DNA of 64,000 bases from NCBI GenBank assembly GCA_030528285.1, contig JAUMZE010000001.1, positions 186,001 through 250,000 of the forward strand, written 5' to 3'. Shown one piece after another: positions 6,341 to 23,172 of the stretch. Source of the DNA: Aerococcus sp. GTDB taxonomy: Bacteria; Bacillota; Bacilli; Lactobacillales; Aerococcaceae. Within the stretch, counting starts at the first letter, position 1. Each line of letters starts with the position of its first letter. The notes beneath the pieces are model-generated. The model was not told the origin of the DNA, ran no database searches, and saw nothing but the letters and a program-made list of their open reading frames with translations. The translations under genes and the position numbers were made by a program.

Positions 6341-7296
<956 letters not shown>

Positions 7297-7305
7297 TTAT
7301 CCCAC

Positions 7306-7334
7306 TTGACATCAGAACGCTTGTTCGCTAAACT
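7306..7334 (+). promoter_or_regulatory. Sigma-A promoter of the YolD-like gene
   Basis: Consensus -35 TTGACA (7306-7311), 17-base spacer, -10 TAAACT (7329-7334). A LexA-like palindrome fills the spacer. Confidence 0.85.
7314..7327 (+). promoter_or_regulatory. LexA-like SOS box 1
   Basis: GAAC-GCTT-GTTCG matches the Gram-positive LexA (Cheo box) pattern CGAAC-N4-GTTCG in both half-sites, except for the first base. It sits exactly between the -35 and -10, where bound LexA would block polymerase. Confidence 0.7.
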
Positions 7335-7344
7335 AAATCTATCA

Positions 7345-7358
7345 AGAACACCTGTTCG
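7345..7358 (+). promoter_or_regulatory. LexA-like SOS box 2
   Basis: GAAC-ACCT-GTTCG, centred 31 bases (about three helical turns) after box 1 and just downstream of the expected transcription start. Two boxes on one promoter suggest tight SOS repression. Confidence 0.65.
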
Positions 7359-7433
7359 ATTTTTAGAACACAACGCGAACAGGTTAATTGATACAAATAC
7401 CAGTACAAGAGAAAAGCGAAGGAGGTCCCACTC

Positions 7434-7817
7434 ATGCAAAATCCAACAACTATTCAAACCAAACACTGGTTTCCTTATTTCCTCAAACAGAAACACCAGC
7501 GCCCTGTGCAAAAAGACAGTGCAGCAGTCGTCACAGTGAACAATCCTACGAGCACTATGGCGCCACCTGCTGAACAATTGGCAGATCAACATTCCCTCAG
7601 CCAAGCGATTCACTATTATTATCACCAACATGCCCTCATGGCTCTCACCGTGAGTCGTCAGATGGGACCGATCACGAGTCGCGAACGACTCATTGGCTAC
7701 TTTCAGACGGATCATGTCACGCGTGGCATGCTTCAGTTCTTCGATGTTGATAATCAGGTGGAACGGCTCATTCCATGTGATACCCTCCTCACCTTCACCA
7801 TAAGCACTGAAGGCTAG
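7434..7817 (+). CDS. Small YolD-like protein, probable SOS gene
   Basis: 127 residues starting at an ATG with a strong AAGGAGG eight bases upstream. I do not recognise a named gene. The C-terminal two thirds (IHYYYHQH..., then alternating strands ending PCDTLLTF) resemble the YolD-like fold, in which a short helix is followed by a small beta barrel. YolD proteins in Firmicutes commonly sit beside SOS-induced Y-family polymerases (UvrX/YqjW type). Here no polymerase is adjacent: the gene stands alone, convergent with cls. The promoter carries two LexA-like boxes. Function is inferred only from fold resemblance and regulation. No signal peptide or membrane segment is seen. Confidence 0.6.
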   Translation: MQNPTTIQTKHWFPYFLKQKHQRPVQKDSAAVVTVNNPTSTMAPPAEQLADQHSLSQAIHYYYHQHALMALTVSRQMGPITSRERLIGYFQTDHVTRGMLQFFDVDNQVERLIPCDTLLTFTISTEG

Positions 7818-7871: not shown

Positions 7872-9326
7872 CTACAACAATGGACTGAACAAGCGCGATC
7901 CGAGCTGACGGAAGCGTAAGAAGCGTGATTGTTTCTTGAAGTACGTCTTATCCATGATGGTTGTATGTTGAAGATCTCGTTCAAATTGCTCTTTGATCTG
8001 GCGGGTGAATGCCGCATCATAAACGAACGCATTCATCTCAAAATTTAACCGGAAACTGCGCACATCAAAATTGGCGGTCCCCAGACTCGTAATCCCATCA
8101 TCAATCGTGAGCACTTTGGCATGGAGGAACCCATTATCATAGCGGTAAACTTTGATCCCACACTCCAACGCTTGCTTACAATAGTACTCCGTCGCACGAT
8201 ATACAAAGGGATGGTCCGGTTTACATGGTACCATCACCTTAACATCCACCCCAGACAACGCCGCACGCTGCAAGGTTTCAAACGCTGATTCATCCGGAAT
8301 GAAGTACGGCGTCTGTAGGGTAATCGATTTTTTGGCCATACTGATCATCTTCAAATACCCCATTTTAATCTGATCAGTGTCATCTTCCGGACCACTGGAC
8401 ACCATCTGCATGGGTGTGTGCGTCGTCACCTCATTCTCTGGGAAGTAATCAAGTGTCCGGTCGCCCTCAAATTCCTGTAAGAAATTCTCATAGTGAATAT
8501 GAGCACTGGCACACCAGTCAACAATAAAGCGACTTTGGAGTGCTTGAACGGCTTCACCGATCACGCGCATATGGGTATCACGCCAATAACCGAGGGGGCC
8601 TTTACCGATATATTCCTTGGCCACATTGAATCCACCGATGTACGCCACCTTCCCGTCAATAACCACGATTTTTCGGTGATTCCGGAAGTTCGCGCGCAAA
8701 CTCTGGATCCAGTGTAGATACCCGAAGAAGGAAATCGCTTCTCCCCCTGCTTCTCGCAATGGTTTAAGGGCGCGTCGACTCAGTTTGCGACTTCCAATTG
8801 CATCATAGAGTAAACGAACATGCACCCCTGCTTGTGCCCGCTCCGTCAAGACATCGAGAATCGCTTGTCCCACTTCATCCGGAGTAAAAATATAATATTG
8901 GATATTAATATGATGTTTAGCCTGCTTCAAATCTTCAATGAGCGCGGCCATTTTTTCTTTACCGTCGTGATAGAGTTGGTAGTCATTCTTCTCCGTTAGA
9001 ATCGAGAAATTGCTGCGGTAGAGAAGTGTCATCAATTGCTGCTGGTCCGGCGAGTAATGGCTAATCGCGCATTGATTTCCATTGCGATCCACATAGGTAT
9101 CAATCAGATCAGTCATCCACATCGCTTCTTGTTCATTCAATTGAAAGATGCGCCGGTTAGAGATCCGTCGTCCAAAGAAGAAATATAAGATGAACCCAAC
9201 CCCTGGTAGCATGATCAACACTAACAGCCACGCCCAGATCGTCGAAATCGGCCGCTCTTGGCGAAAGACCGTAATAATCGCTAAGATCGTATTCACCGCA
9301 ATAAACAAACTGATAAAACTAGCCAT
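7872..9326 (-). CDS. cls: Cardiolipin synthase (two-HKD phospholipase D family)
   Basis: Membrane enzyme that condenses two phosphatidylglycerols into cardiolipin and glycerol. 484 residues, the usual length. Two N-terminal membrane segments (about residues 3-20 and 30-52, ending in FFFGRR) are followed by two HKD motifs: NHRKIVVIDGKVAYIGGFN in the middle and HAKVLTIDDGITSLGTANFD near the C-terminus. The ATG at 9326 has GAGGTAACT directly upstream. A TACAAT about 50 bases upstream could be a -10. It is a single-gene unit between a terminator and the convergent YolD-like gene. Confidence 0.95.
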   Translation of the reverse strand: MASFISLFIAVNTILAIITVFRQERPISTIWAWLLVLIMLPGVGFILYFFFGRRISNRRIFQLNEQEAMWMTDLIDTYVDRNGNQCAISHYSPDQQQLMTLLYRSNFSILTEKNDYQLYHDGKEKMAALIEDLKQAKHHINIQYYIFTPDEVGQAILDVLTERAQAGVHVRLLYDAIGSRKLSRRALKPLREAGGEAISFFGYLHWIQSLRANFRNHRKIVVIDGKVAYIGGFNVAKEYIGKGPLGYWRDTHMRVIGEAVQALQSRFIVDWCASAHIHYENFLQEFEGDRTLDYFPENEVTTHTPMQMVSSGPEDDTDQIKMGYLKMISMAKKSITLQTPYFIPDESAFETLQRAALSGVDVKVMVPCKPDHPFVYRATEYYCKQALECGIKVYRYDNGFLHAKVLTIDDGITSLGTANFDVRSFRLNFEMNAFVYDAAFTRQIKEQFERDLQHTTIMDKTYFKKQSRFLRFRQLGSRLFSPLL

Positions 9327-17671: not shown

Positions 17672-17708
17672 GGGCCGCTTGTGGTTTTCTCGCAGGCGGT
17701 CCTTTTTT
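17672..17708 (+). terminator. Terminator after the PAP2 gene
   Basis: GGGCCGCTTG pairs with CAGGCGGTCC around a short loop, then CTTTTTT; it abuts the convergent tetR stop. Confidence 0.82.
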
Positions 17709-18333
17709 ATGCAGAGACGTCTTCTTGTGCCTCCGCATTCTGTTTGGTCGTCGCAATCAAGGCAACTGGTGAGAGATGTTTGGCCTCTTCAATCATCCGT
17801 GCTACTATTTCTGGATCCTCTTCGCCGCCTTTATGAATCCAGCGTTCAATAATCGTCACTGTTCCCGACAGCAATAACTCCTTCGCGTAATCCACGGGAA
17901 AGGCATGGTGGTTGATCACTAAGGTCATAGATAGATCCAATTTCTGCGCCACAAATTGTTCGAGAATCCCCTTCACCCGATCAAAGAAGGACGGATCTCC
18001 CCCATCGCTCGCCAAAGCTTCCACCAGAGCAAATTCCTCTTTCACATAGAGTAAAGCTTTGTAGATAGCAGCATAAGGAATGAGTTCGAGCGGATCCTCG
18101 ACATTCTCGGAATTAATATTGTCATTGAGGATCGTCTCCAAATCAATAATCGCACGTGATTCTAATTTTTCCATTAGGTCATATTTATCAATATAATGAA
18201 GATAAAAGGTCCCGCGGTTAATCCCGGCTTCACGGGCAACATCACTCACGGTCAAATTATCCATGCCTTTTTCATGAATCAATTTAATAAAGGCCTTTTT
18301 AATCTTAGGAAGCGTTTGTGTTCGTCGTTGCAT
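17707..18333 (-). CDS. TetR-family regulator of the divergent ABC system
   Basis: 208 residues. N-terminal helix-turn-helix: LTVSDVAREAGINRGTFYLHYIDKYDLME. The C-terminal ligand domain is of the type common in small lactic TetR proteins and the acidic tail ends QEDVSA. It is transcribed away from the ATPase/giant permease pair, with 165 bases between. That gap holds two near-identical 25-base repeats flanking a good promoter, so it is most likely the local repressor. The inducer is unknown. Confidence 0.9.
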   Translation of the reverse strand: MQRRTQTLPKIKKAFIKLIHEKGMDNLTVSDVAREAGINRGTFYLHYIDKYDLMEKLESRAIIDLETILNDNINSENVEDPLELIPYAAIYKALLYVKEEFALVEALASDGGDPSFFDRVKGILEQFVAQKLDLSMTLVINHHAFPVDYAKELLLSGTVTIIERWIHKGGEEDPEIVARMIEEAKHLSPVALIATTKQNAEAQEDVSA

Positions 18334-18379
18334 GGTAAAACATCCTTTCCTAGTTAAATCAACATCTTTTATCGATTAA

Positions 18380-18404
18380 ATCAACACATTGTTCGTTTTG
18401 CTTA
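18380..18404 (+). promoter_or_regulatory. Operator-like direct repeat 1
   Basis: 25-base repeat beginning ATCAACACATTGTTC. It matches repeat 2 at 20 of 25 positions; all five differences are transitions. It contains a quasi-palindrome CAAC...GTTG-type core. It lies immediately upstream of the -35 of the ABC promoter. Confidence 0.6.
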
Positions 18405-18433
18405 TTGTAATCCCTCGACTATGACTATATACT
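18405..18433 (+). promoter_or_regulatory. Promoter of the coiled-coil permease operon
   Basis: TTGTAA (18405-18410), 17 bases, TATACT (18428-18433), flanked by the two repeats. Confidence 0.7.
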
Positions 18434-18447
18434 TTTCTACTGTATGA

Positions 18448-18472
18448 ATCAACGTGTTGTTCATTTTGTTTA
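18448..18472 (+). promoter_or_regulatory. Operator-like direct repeat 2
   Basis: Begins ATCAACGTGTTGTTC with a perfect CAACGTGTTG palindrome; 68 bases from repeat 1 and downstream of the -10, a good roadblock position. A third partial copy (AAATCAACATC) lies at about 18356-18366. Confidence 0.6.
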
Positions 18473-18498
18473 GAATGAAGTAAGGAGGAAACAGATAA

Positions 18499-19200
18499 AT
18501 GAGCTATCTTGAAGTCAATCATAGCTACAAACGTTTTAAAACGGGTGATACCGAAATCGTTGCGAATAACGACATTACGTTTAACGTCGAACAAGGTGAA
18601 CTCGCCATCATCCTCGGAGCATCCGGGGCAGGAAAATCCACCCTGTTAAATATTCTCGGGGGAATGGAATCCAATGACGAAGGCGAAGTTATTATCGACG
18701 GAAAAAATATCGCTAACTACTCGCGCACAGAACTCACCCAGTATCGGCGTGAGGACGTGGGATTCGTATTCCAGTTCTACAATCTGGTTCCGAATCTCAC
18801 TGCCAAGGAAAATGTGGAATTAGCCTCAGAAATTGTGAAAGATGCTGCGGACGCTGTGGACACTCTCGAAGCAGTTGGGCTTGGCAAGCGGATCAATAAT
18901 TTCCCGTCGCAGCTCTCTGGTGGTGAACAGCAGCGTGTTTCGATTGCGCGTGCGATCGCCAAGAAACCAAAAATTCTGCTCTGTGATGAACCAACTGGGG
19001 CCTTGGATTATCAAACCGGAAAACAGGTCCTCCAAATTCTTCAGGATATGAGTCGTAAGGAAAATGTGACGGTCATTATCGTCACCCATAACGGCGCTTT
19101 GGCACCGATTGCGGACCGTGTGATTCGCATGCATGACGCCAAAGTCCAGAGTATTGAAGTAAACAACCACCCCGAAGATATTAAAAATATCGAATGGTAA
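18499..19200 (+). CDS. ABC transporter ATP-binding protein (MacB/LolD type)
   Basis: 233-residue ATPase of the mechanotransmission (MacB/LolD/FtsE) class. Walker [11 protein letters not shown]-loop [18 protein letters not shown], signature LSGGEQQR, Walker [12 protein letters not shown], and switch [13 protein letters not shown]. The ATG at 18499 follows AAGGAGG. It is paired with the 1318-residue FtsX-like permease 15 bases downstream and controlled by the divergent TetR. Likely role: energising conformational work of the permease on an envelope substrate rather than classical import. Confidence 0.94.
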
Positions 19201-19215
19201 TGGTGGTGACAGTAG

Positions 19216-22200
19216 ATGATACAGAAGAAAAGTTTATGGAAAGATATCTTTAAATCAATCAGTCATTCGAAGGGGCGCTTCTTATCGATTCTGGGATTGA
19301 TGCTCCTCGGGGCGTTCGCACTCGTGGGACTCCAGGTAACGGGGCCTGACATGCGCGATACCGGACGTCATTATCTCAAGGACCTCAACGTGGCAGATAT
19401 GGCCGTGATTGGGACACTCGGGATTGACGAAGAGGACCAGAAAGTAATCGATCAAGTAAAGGGTGTCAACAAGATTGAGTATGGCTATCTCAAAGACGTC
19501 ACATTGAAAGACTCCACCGATAGTTTCCGTCTCTTCTCTAAAACCGATGATATCTCACATTATGAGGTACGCGAGGGACGTCTCCCAGAAAAAGCCGATG
19601 AAGTAGCAATCAGCGCCACCTATGCGGACAAATACCATATCGGCGACACGATCGATTTCAATGAAGCCGAAGATGCGTCAGGTAATAAGGTCCTCAAAGA
19701 TCCTCATTATAAGATCGTTGGTTTCGTTTATTCCGGGGAAATTCTCTCCAGCAATAACCTCGGGCAATCAACGGCTGGGACCGGATCACTCAAGGGCTAC
19801 GGAGTGTTGACACCGGATGCTTTTGATTCCGATGTCTACATGGTCGCACGGTTACGCTTCGACGACTTACTCGATGTGGATCCTTACTCTGAGGACTACA
19901 CCAACAAACTCCAAGCGCACAAGGACGATCTTGATGACAAACTCAAAAATCAACCCAATCACCGACTCAATGCGGTGAAACAGGAATATCAAGATCAAAT
20001 TGATGATGGACAGAAGAAAATTGATGATGCGAATAAAGAGCTCGCTGATAAAGAACAGCAGCTCAAAGACGCCAAGAAACAATTAGAAGAAGGCAGTCAA
20101 AAAATTGCGGATGCCCAAGCGGAATTAACCAAACAAGTGAATAATGCACAGGGTCAAATTAATGACGGCGCCAACCAAATCGCGAATGCTAAATCTCAAT
20201 TAGCATCTGGACAGCAACAACTAGCCTCAGCGAAGCAACAGCTGAATGCAGGGGCTAAAGCCTTGGATGAACGTTGGCAGCAATTAGCGAGCGGTCAACA
20301 ACAACTGAACGCTGCAAAACAGAAACTCAATGCTTCGAACCAACAATTGAGTGCCGGGGCCAAAAAGCTTACCCAAGGACAAAATCAAATTGCCCAGGGA
20401 TATCAAGCATTAGCGGCGAGCCAACAGCAATTACAGGAGGCAGAGGGACAGATCAAACAAGCTGAACAACAATTAGCTGCTGGTCAAAAACAATGGAACG
20501 ATCAAAAAGCCAGCTATGATCAATCGAACGCTACTTTCCAGAAGAAACAGCAAGCGTATCAAAAGAATTCCGCTCAAATTGACCAGGCACAGCAAGCAAT
20601 CGATAGTAAGAAGACTGAGCTCGAGAATGGGCGTAATCAGTATAACCAAGCGATTGCGGACTTAACCAATCAGGAACAAGCTCTCCAAAAACAACTCGAA
20701 TATCCGGATTTGAAGGACGAAGAGAAAGCGACCCTCGAATCGCAGTTAAAAACGGTTCGAGAAAAATTGATGCAAACGAAGAGTCAGTTGGATAGTTTTA
20801 ACCGCGACACGTATGAACCAGGCATCCAAACCCTCCAAGAAAAGCAAAAGGAATTGGATACTAAAAAAACGGCATTAAATGAAGCCAAACAGTCCCTCGA
20901 TGCGGCTGAACAAAAATTAACGGCTGCGAAACAGAAACTGGATCAGGGCAAACAAATATTGGACAATAACCAATCCATCCTAAACCAGAAGAAACAAGCC
21001 CTCGAACAAGGGAAGAAAGACTTCCAAACCGCGCAGAATAAACTCGCGAGTGGAGAAAAAAACCTCAAACGAGAACAAGTCGCTTACCAACAAGGACTCA
21101 ATGAATACAACGCTGGGATTCAATCCTACAATGCGAATTTGAACACCTACTACGCGGGGGTTTCCGCATGGCAACAAGGAATGAACCAGCTCAATCAGAA
21201 GTCCCAAGAGTATCAAGCCAACGCCGATCGCCTGAAGACTGCAGAACAAGCCCTCGCCAATAAGGAACAGGAACTCGCCACTGCCAAGGACGAACTGGCC
21301 ACTAAGAAAGCGGATGGGGAACGCCAAATTGCTGATAGTAAGCAAACCCTCGCCGATAAACAAAAAGAATACGATGATAATAAAAAGGCCTTTGACGACA
21401 AGAAGCAAGACGCTGAGAAGGAAATTAACGACAAGCAAGACGAACTCGATGAAGCTAAAGAGGAACTCAATCATCTCTCGCTCCCAACCTATTCGATCAG
21501 CAGCCGTCGTGAAATTCCAGGTGGTGAAGGAACTCAAATCTACACCAACACCGCCAATATCGTCGATGCCTTAGCGAATATCTTCCCTATCTTCCTCTAT
21601 TTCGTGGCTGCGCTCGTTGCCTTTACCACAATGGGCCGGTTCGTGGATGAGGAACGGATCAATGCCGGGACGCTCAAAGCACTCGGTTATGACGACAAGG
21701 ACATCTTCAAAAAATTCGCCTTCTATGGTTTAACAGCAGGGCTCACGGGGACAGTGATTGGGATTGCCTTAGGACATACCTTGATCCCATCCATTGCCTA
21801 CAACGCCTACAAGGTCGGGATTACCCTTCCTAAGATTGAGTGGCATTTCCACTGGAGGATTACCCTCATTGCCCTCGTATTATCACTCCTCAGTTCGGTA
21901 CTACCGGCATGGATTGCTACCAAACAGGAACTAACGGAACGTCCAGCACAACTGCTCCTGCCGAAACCACCTGCAGCCGGCTCGAAAATCTTTCTCGAAC
22001 GTCTGCCGCACTTGTGGGGACGCATGAATTTCACACACAAAGTTACTGCGCGGAACATCTTCCGTTACAAACAGCGGATGTTGATGACGATCTTCGGAGT
22101 CGCGGGTGCGGTGGCCCTCCTGTTCACAGGGTTATCCGTTCAAAACTCCATTGGTGGGATCAATGATAAACAGTTTGGGGACATCATCCATTACGATATG

Positions 22201-23172
22201 ATCGTTGCCCAGAATGATTATTTGACTGCCGATGAGAGTAAAGAAATCAATGATCGACTCAATAGCGACCAGGTGAAAGAATACACGCCGATTCATTATG
22301 AATCCCTCACCAAAGTCGCAGGACGAAACAAAGATAAACAAGACATTAAATTACTGGTGCCAGAAGACACCAATACCTTCAAGGACTATATCTCCCTGAG
22401 AGAACGGAAATCACAGACAGCCATCAGCCTCCCTGATGACGGTGTGGTCATTAGTGAACGTCTCGCCCAATTGATTGATGCGAAAGTTGGGGAGACCGTT
22501 ACTTTCACGGATGATGAGGATCAAGAACGTGAAATGAAAGTCGCGGGCATTACCGAAATGTACATGGGGCACTTTGCCTTCATGAGTCCAACAGCCTACA
22601 GTGACACCTTCCACAAAGACTATGAAACGGACGCAGAGATGGTGAAACTCAACGATTCTTCAATGAGTAATATTGAGAAGGAAGCCTCTGCTTTTATGGA
22701 ATATACCGGCGTGCTCAATGTCCTCCAAAATACCACCTTCACGAATCTGATCGAAACGATTGTCCACTCGATGAATAAAGTGCTCCAAGTGCTCATTATT
22801 ATTGCGGGGCTACTCGGAATCGTGATTCTCTACAACCTCACCAATATCAATGTATCGGAACGGATGCGTGAGCTCTCTACGATCAAGGTGCTCGGGTTCT
22901 ATGACAAGGAAGTCACCCTCTATATTTACCGCGAGACGATCTTACTGACGATCATCGGTATCTTCGTCGGCTATGGAATTGGGGAACTCCTCCACCAGTA
23001 CATTTTGAGAGTGGTACCGCCTGAGAATATCATGTTCGATCCAACCAATGCGCCAATGAACTTCATTGTGCCAGCGATTGTGATCATCGTAATTACGACC
23101 GTGCTCGCCTTTGTGATTCACGAACGCCTCAAACGTGTCGACATGCTCGAGGCCCTCTCATCGGTCGAATAA
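19216..23172 (+). CDS. Giant FtsX-like ABC permease with about 500-residue extracellular coiled coil
   Basis: 1318 residues. TM1 is at about residues 18-38 (FLSILGLMLLGAFALVGLQV), followed by an extracellular MacB-like region to about 250. Residues about 252-752 form a very long Q/A/K/N-rich coiled coil with recurring QQQLxxAK-type heptads. Three FtsX helices follow (about 780-900), then TM5 near 950, a second extracellular domain (about 970-1175) and three final helices ending in RVDMLEALSSVE. This is the type VII ABC layout with a duplicated FtsX domain. Related large permeases occur in lactic bacteria next to TetR genes, but no substrate is established that I can name. Start ATG at 19216 after GGTGGTGA. 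Confidence 0.92.
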   Translation: MIQKKSLWKDIFKSISHSKGRFLSILGLMLLGAFALVGLQVTGPDMRDTGRHYLKDLNVADMAVIGTLGIDEEDQKVIDQVKGVNKIEYGYLKDVTLKDSTDSFRLFSKTDDISHYEVREGRLPEKADEVAISATYADKYHIGDTIDFNEAEDASGNKVLKDPHYKIVGFVYSGEILSSNNLGQSTAGTGSLKGYGVLTPDAFDSDVYMVARLRFDDLLDVDPYSEDYTNKLQAHKDDLDDKLKNQPNHRLNAVKQEYQDQIDDGQKKIDDANKELADKEQQLKDAKKQLEEGSQKIADAQAELTKQVNNAQGQINDGANQIANAKSQLASGQQQLASAKQQLNAGAKALDERWQQLASGQQQLNAAKQKLNASNQQLSAGAKKLTQGQNQIAQGYQALAASQQQLQEAEGQIKQAEQQLAAGQKQWNDQKASYDQSNATFQKKQQAYQKNSAQIDQAQQAIDSKKTELENGRNQYNQAIADLTNQEQALQKQLEYPDLKDEEKATLESQLKTVREKLMQTKSQLDSFNRDTYEPGIQTLQEKQKELDTKKTALNEAKQSLDAAEQKLTAAKQKLDQGKQILDNNQSILNQKKQALEQGKKDFQTAQNKLASGEKNLKREQVAYQQGLNEYNAGIQSYNANLNTYYAGVSAWQQGMNQLNQKSQEYQANADRLKTAEQALANKEQELATAKDELATKKADGERQIADSKQTLADKQKEYDDNKKAFDDKKQDAEKEINDKQDELDEAKEELNHLSLPTYSISSRREIPGGEGTQIYTNTANIVDALANIFPIFLYFVAALVAFTTMGRFVDEERINAGTLKALGYDDKDIFKKFAFYGLTAGLTGTVIGIALGHTLIPSIAYNAYKVGITLPKIEWHFHWRITLIALVLSLLSSVLPAWIATKQELTERPAQLLLPKPPAAGSKIFLERLPHLWGRMNFTHKVTARNIFRYKQRMLMTIFGVAGAVALLFTGLSVQNSIGGINDKQFGDIIHYDMIVAQNDYLTADESKEINDRLNSDQVKEYTPIHYESLTKVAGRNKDKQDIKLLVPEDTNTFKDYISLRERKSQTAISLPDDGVVISERLAQLIDAKVGETVTFTDDEDQEREMKVAGITEMYMGHFAFMSPTAYSDTFHKDYETDAEMVKLNDSSMSNIEKEASAFMEYTGVLNVLQNTTFTNLIETIVHSMNKVLQVLIIIAGLLGIVILYNLTNINVSERMRELSTIKVLGFYDKEVTLYIYRETILLTIIGIFVGYGIGELLHQYILRVVPPENIMFDPTNAPMNFIVPAIVIIVITTVLAFVIHERLKRVDMLEALSSVE

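Follow-up and report, generated by a model that had tools for sequence, protein, structure and literature searches.

Predicted LexA boxes precede a conserved Aerococcus gene for a putative YolD-type barrel protein without the polymerase-inserting arm

We examined a lone small gene of Aerococcus sp. that stands behind a pair of LexA-type boxes with no polymerase gene at its side, and asked what kind of protein it is likely to make. The gene lies in a 64-kb stretch of DNA (contig 12, positions 186001-250000; hereafter the window) of a 1.62-Mb assembly that comprises 20 contigs and is 85% complete. A candidate sigma-70-type promoter occupies 7306-7334 on the forward strand, with TTGACA at 7306-7311 and TAAACT at 7329-7334 separated by a 17-base spacer, and agrees with the consensus at 10 of 12 bases. 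Two exact GAAC-N4-GTTC palindromes, which we predict to be LexA boxes and assign to neither strand, overlie and follow it: box 1 (GAACGCTTGTTC, 7315-7326) falls within the promoter spacer, and box 2 (GAACACCTGTTC, 7346-7357), 31 bases further on from start to start, falls at the expected transcription start. A Shine-Dalgarno sequence, AGGAGG, can be read directly at 7420-7425 on the same strand, ahead of a 127-codon open reading frame that runs forward from an ATG at 7434 to a stop at 7817. The neighbours on either side, named from their open reading frames and sequence motifs rather than by library search, are a divergent gmk (guanylate kinase, 6550-7182, reverse strand, with a P-loop motif and its start placed at the ATG of MKSKGLLVV) and a convergent cls (cardiolipin synthase, 7872-9326, reverse strand). 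None of the open reading frames in the window places a polymerase next to the 127-codon gene. The original prediction of a lone gene for a 127-residue protein, driven by a consensus promoter with two palindromes, thus describes the locus correctly.

A promoter scan finds two promoter-like sites in 851 bases compared with 1.4 in shuffled sequence, and so the promoter match by itself is no evidence. Likewise, the window contains two exact palindromes where 100 dinucleotide shuffles contain 1.27 on average, and 25 palindromes with one mismatch allowed where 30 are expected. At least two exact palindromes arise in 34 of the 100 shuffles, so that a count of two in 64 kb proves nothing and would suit the reading that chance palindromes happen to stand ahead of an unrelated small open reading frame. 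The picture across the whole assembly does go beyond chance, as the exact pattern occurs at only four sites, against 17 for its reversed control. Two of these are at the 127-codon gene, and a third ends 63 bases ahead of the recA start codon. The fourth, at C14:35141, lies where two convergent genes meet and is probably due to chance. The scarcity of the exact pattern beside its reversed control looks as though the box were avoided elsewhere in this genome.

Also against chance speaks the conservation of the gene and of its boxes. At E<=0.1, a search with the single protein found matches in 16 of 60 genomes, among them the source genome; two of the matches are due to chance, one (L016) having three internal stops and the other (L018) lying inside a long unrelated frame. 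A 14-sequence profile finds the gene in all 15 Aerococcus genomes and, within the GTDB family, matches 43 of 76 genomes at E<=0.1; matches of this profile outside the genus with E>0.01 were read singly only if a 22-sequence profile recovered them. The latter profile matches 73 of 395 Lactobacillales genomes at E<=0.001, representing 24 of 80 genera, a count that includes at least one off-family chance match (L209) and one canonical YolD beside a polymerase (L205), both of which were excluded from the promoter count below. Aerococcus agrisoli is a carrier of the gene. In a search of contigs the single protein gave no match, and profile A3 gave five Aerococcus loci. Motifs of gmk and cls flank the gene at all 15 Aerococcus loci, and cls also lies beside part of the more distant homologues. 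A gene found throughout its genus, always between gmk and cls, and also in other families of Lactobacillales is not the orphan that had been proposed. As judged from sequence comparison it is also under purifying selection, with dN of 0.006-0.03 against dS of 0.065-0.28 in six pairs drawn from four close Aerococcus genomes (dN/dS ~0.1).

The boxes have been kept along with the gene. We read 74 homologue promoters, 15 from Aerococcus, 15 from the next genera and 41 from more distant Lactobacillales, together with L173-L175. At least two boxes matching seven or eight of the eight fixed bases are present in 73 of the 74, where simple arithmetic predicts ~0.06 boxes per promoter in random sequence, and at least one exact box is present in 67; the sole promoter without a box is that of a distant homologue (L200). 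The two boxes are mostly 25-36 bases apart. Of 71 promoters (L173-L175 being outside this count), 47 have a box within the spacer under a strict promoter definition, and the second box of many distant homologues overruns the Shine-Dalgarno sequence. This conservation already contradicts the chance-palindrome explanation, which we regard as extremely improbable.

The boxes are of LexA type, and canonical lexA is present in 14 of 15 Aerococcus genomes; it was not found in the source genome, whose assembly is the 85%-complete one. No exact GAAC-N4-GTTC occurs at the lexA loci of those 14 genomes (L099-L112; ~1.5 kb on each side, one shorter). Both points count against the reading favoured below. 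Two further LexA-like matches, L113 and L116 (G000, C18:4019-4492 and C16:236762-237199), lie in open frames of ~244 residues and score under the lexA cut-off; they are possibly phage repressors.

The family libraries do not name the protein. Scans of the single protein against Pfam, NCBIfam and PHROGs returned no credible match, a JAB match at E 0.15 being beneath the cut-off, and a PDB sequence search with the genus alignment A1 returned nothing to E 10. Across 44 members of the family, NCBIfam and PHROG models match sporadically, one or two members at a time, with a best E of 0.001. The confident match to the YolD family PF08863 that had been anticipated for 7434-7817 did not appear: the single protein is unmatched at the cut-off of 27.5 bits, the best score in the source genome is 13.1 bits at another place, and only one of the 44 family members is matched, at E 0.012. 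In a side observation, PF08863 also misses the three Aerococcus operon YolD proteins on which it was tried (L081, L083 and L086) despite their armed KW motif, so this operon branch of YolD seems to escape the Pfam model.

Profile-profile comparison, by contrast with these scans, points to YolD. With hhalign, the 44-sequence family aligns to a set of 21 YolD sequences with a probability of 94.7% and a score of 46.5, and to eight Aerococcus operon YolD sequences with 95.8% and 50.0. The set of 21 consists of 15 matches from one YolD search and six sub-threshold ones from another, leaving out L140, L141, L142 and L146 and the short L145, L147 and L148 (alignment A5); the operon profile uses eight of ten sequences, L084 and L088 being omitted. 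Control comparisons with 36 chunks of unrelated families (DinB, UvrX, LexA and seven more) reach at most 24.9 (19.4%) and 19.1. The 22-sequence alignment scores 45.5, compared with at most 22.3 for 200 column shuffles and 16.0 for reversed columns. The genus-only profile (A1) is weaker, at 90.2% against the 21 YolD sequences and 39.9% against the operon YolD sequences.

An AlphaFold2 model built from the 44-row alignment has a mean pLDDT of 78.0 and a pTM of 0.58, with 69 of the 127 residues at 90 or above. The well-modelled part is a YolD/WYL-like domain (residues 52-123; 7587-7802, forward strand) in which a helix (52-65) is followed by a five-strand barrel (69-77, 80-90, 99-104, 109-114 and 118-123), and pLDDT block means are 86-98 from residue 51. 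A Foldseek search of viral models (BFVD) gives modest matches, one of them at E<=0.001, with query TM values mostly of 0.3-0.5, and WYL-domain proteins account for seven among the 50 matches listed. YolD itself is placed in the WYL-like superfamily and described as an SH3 barrel in the available text of PMC6511836. Assignment of the modelled protein to this superfamily, as a helix plus SH3/Sm-type barrel, is well supported, and the predicted fold is as expected for the proposed family. The description "YolD-like" therefore survives in the barrel and the profile similarity, and fails in the missing PF08863 match and in the N-terminal arm considered below. Taken at the level of sequence and model, the combination of LexA-type boxes with a YolD-type barrel is well supported, and we are highly confident that SOS control and a YolD-type domain go together here.

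WYL- and Sm-type barrels can bind nucleic acids, and one explanation of the gene would place it outside lesion bypass altogether, as an SOS effector that acts as a brake on division or replication or as a WYL-like regulator binding nucleic acids or ligands. That the gene stands alone would fit such an effector, as would the lexA loci of the 14 Aerococcus genomes, where inspection of the close flanks by eye finds no YneA-like neighbour. The profile similarity of the family is nevertheless to YolD, with ten unrelated control families unmatched, and no transmembrane or LysM segment is visible by eye, nor anything else that points to division. We consider an effector of this kind improbable.

The part of YolD that the family does not share is the N-terminal arm. 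In its place is a low-confidence tail (residues 1-50; 7434-7583, forward strand), which is unstructured in the model with pLDDT block means of 43-63. The N-terminal part of the family scores only 5.0 and 4.8 against the two YolD alignments, whereas a positive control, the N-terminus of the 21 YolD sequences against the operon YolD profile, scores 25.7. A KW-type arm pattern is present in none of 44 family members, in 8 of 8 operon YolD sequences and in 7 of 21 other YolD sequences; the short, LPEH-type pattern [LMFI][SPAD]EH is found in 1 of 44, 0 of 8 and 13 of 21, respectively. In published modelling the arm is what enters YqjW/UvrX-type polymerases, and some small subunits are described as having the arm alone in common with YolD (both in the available text of PMC12926913). 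By these sequence comparisons the family is a YolD barrel without the polymerase-inserting arm. A clamp-binding motif in the N-terminal tail was considered and rejected, as there is no conserved Q. The S24 peptidase domain has no Pfam match in the single protein, or in the 44 members among the 25 of 28 families listed, and there is thus no sign of self-cleavage.

Which polymerase, if any, could such a protein serve? A DinB-type polymerase is present in all 15 Aerococcus genomes, and none of the 15 dinB loci has an exact box (~1.5 kb on each side). In the source genome, where the original prediction proposed to look for umuC or uvrX homologues with the same boxes, this DinB-type enzyme is the only Y-family polymerase found, and it has no exact box nearby. 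A second, UvrX-like polymerase occurs in 11 of 15 Aerococcus genomes, with at least one exact box near its start at all 11 loci (L080-L090). An armed YolD follows directly at 10 of these; G014 instead has a canonical YolD apart from UvrX, under a box of its own. No UvrX was detected in the remaining four genomes (the source genome, G004, G005 and G011), all of which carry the 127-codon gene and of which two are ~85% complete, G011 is 95% complete and G005 is 99% complete. UvrX is also absent from the 6.6-11 kb upstream of clpB in these four, which is its place in G010 and G012; within the short flanks available, the clpB start is seen beside UvrX at 6 of 11 loci. Among carriers outside Aerococcus, 55 of the 57 tested have at least two Y-family matches, a figure drawn from carriers only and claiming no association, and G020 and G372 have one each. 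Every carrier tested has a DinB-type match, split in G025. DinB is common in any case. Separately, a second boxed YolD-UvrX pair (L060, L079, L096) lies on a 3.3-kb contig, C106 of G008, and possibly comes from a mobile element.

These distributions bear on a further explanation, that the protein is a true small subunit of a distant UvrX-type polymerase which the source genome no longer has or which falls in the portion that its assembly lacks. There is a precedent in S. aureus, where such a pairing is proposed for yolD and the distant umuC (available text of PMC6511836 and PMC11442139), and a second Y-family polymerase does accompany the gene in the 11 Aerococcus genomes and 55 other carriers just described, counts to which no background rate is attached. 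The N-terminal motif [RK].LF.P also tracks this operon: all 10 Aerococcus genomes in which an armed YolD follows UvrX have it, and the other five lack it (nine of 14 proteins tested, plus L040, whose KALFTP was read separately). However, kinship confounds this correlation, as one event on the dinB tree can account for it. A distant-subunit role is further difficult to reconcile with three observations: the Aerococcus UvrX has its own armed operon YolD at 10 of 11 loci, the gene persists in the four genomes where UvrX went undetected, including one that is 99% complete, and the arm modelled to touch the polymerase is absent. We therefore judge it unlikely, if slightly less so than the effector outside lesion bypass. 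The original prediction had left two options, and of these the stand-alone SOS factor is the better one; a partner polymerase encoded elsewhere, in its UvrX form, is a poor fit.

Three observations argue for a stand-alone modulator rather than a plain UvrX subunit: the arm is absent, UvrX has a separate, armed YolD, and the gene persists where UvrX is undetected. The reading towards which we lean is therefore that of a LexA-repressed, stand-alone, arm-less YolD-domain protein which modulates damage tolerance independently of UvrX; for the modulator role taken by itself we see the balance as even. From established LexA knowledge, we infer that the gene is repressed by LexA and induced by damage. 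In the undamaged cell, LexA would block the promoter spacer from box 1 and cover the start region from box 2, giving tight control of expression. Upon DNA damage, RecA filaments would promote self-cleavage of LexA and the protein would be made. Through its barrel it would then work as a small adaptor in damage tolerance, or as a modulator of it, and not as an operon-bound subunit of UvrX. We infer an action on a polymerase or on RecA, and the most likely targets would be DinB (Pol IV), whose gene has no such box, or a RecA-polymerase assembly; these are the most economical candidates because a DinB-type match occurs in every carrier tested. Where UvrX exists, the protein may compete with the armed YolD. 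A bolder and rather doubtful extension would make the barrel-only proteins, as an order-wide family, a separate Lactobacillales branch of the SOS response. With its double LexA boxes, such a stand-alone manager would either bring a constitutive DinB polymerase, or the RecA-polymerase complex, into the SOS response, or restrain UvrX mutagenesis by competing with the armed YolD.

Comparison with known systems shows where the family departs from them. It resembles YolD/YqjX (PF08863), the proposed UmuD counterpart of UvrX/YqjW, in its helix and SH3-type barrel, its profile similarity and its predicted LexA-type control, but it has no N-terminal arm, no polymerase is seen beside its stand-alone members, and PF08863 does not recognise it. 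The S. aureus yolD (SACOL1986/SAOUHSC_02144) is LexA-controlled, of YolD type and away from the polymerase gene (available text of PMC6511836 and PMC11442139). Compared by description, that protein is proposed to serve the distant umuC, whereas the present family is arm-less and occurs also where UvrX was not found. The arm-only PolY mutasome subunits described in the available text of PMC12926913 are, like the present family, variants of the YqjX/YolD small subunit, but they keep the arm and lose or replace the barrel, and the present family is their converse. UmuD has an SH3-type core, according to the available text of PMC6511836, and is proposed to hold an analogous place in the SOS response; no S24 peptidase match is listed for the present family. 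In the text available from PMC6511836 and PMC13335488, yqjX has a small effect or none and its contact with PolY2 went undetected, which leaves the role of YolD as a UmuD counterpart unsettled.

S. aureus thus already provides a yolD that LexA controls and that lies away from its polymerase; what is new is an arm-less version kept where UvrX is not found. We found no description of this arm-less family in the open-licence literature, supplements aside; a reconstruction of the Lactobacillaceae LexA regulon, again with its supplements set aside, covers 13 target operons (available text of PMC3616900). A natural barrel-only YolD with double LexA boxes, kept where UvrX is not found, separates the role of the barrel from that of the arm and offers a clean means of genetic analysis. 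A conserved gene that is nameless in Pfam, NCBIfam and PHROGs thereby also acquires a likely class of function. Elsewhere in the window, 17707-23172 encodes a TetR-type regulator, an ABC ATPase and a 1318-residue permease with a long Gln/Lys-rich coiled-coil insert, all named by eye.
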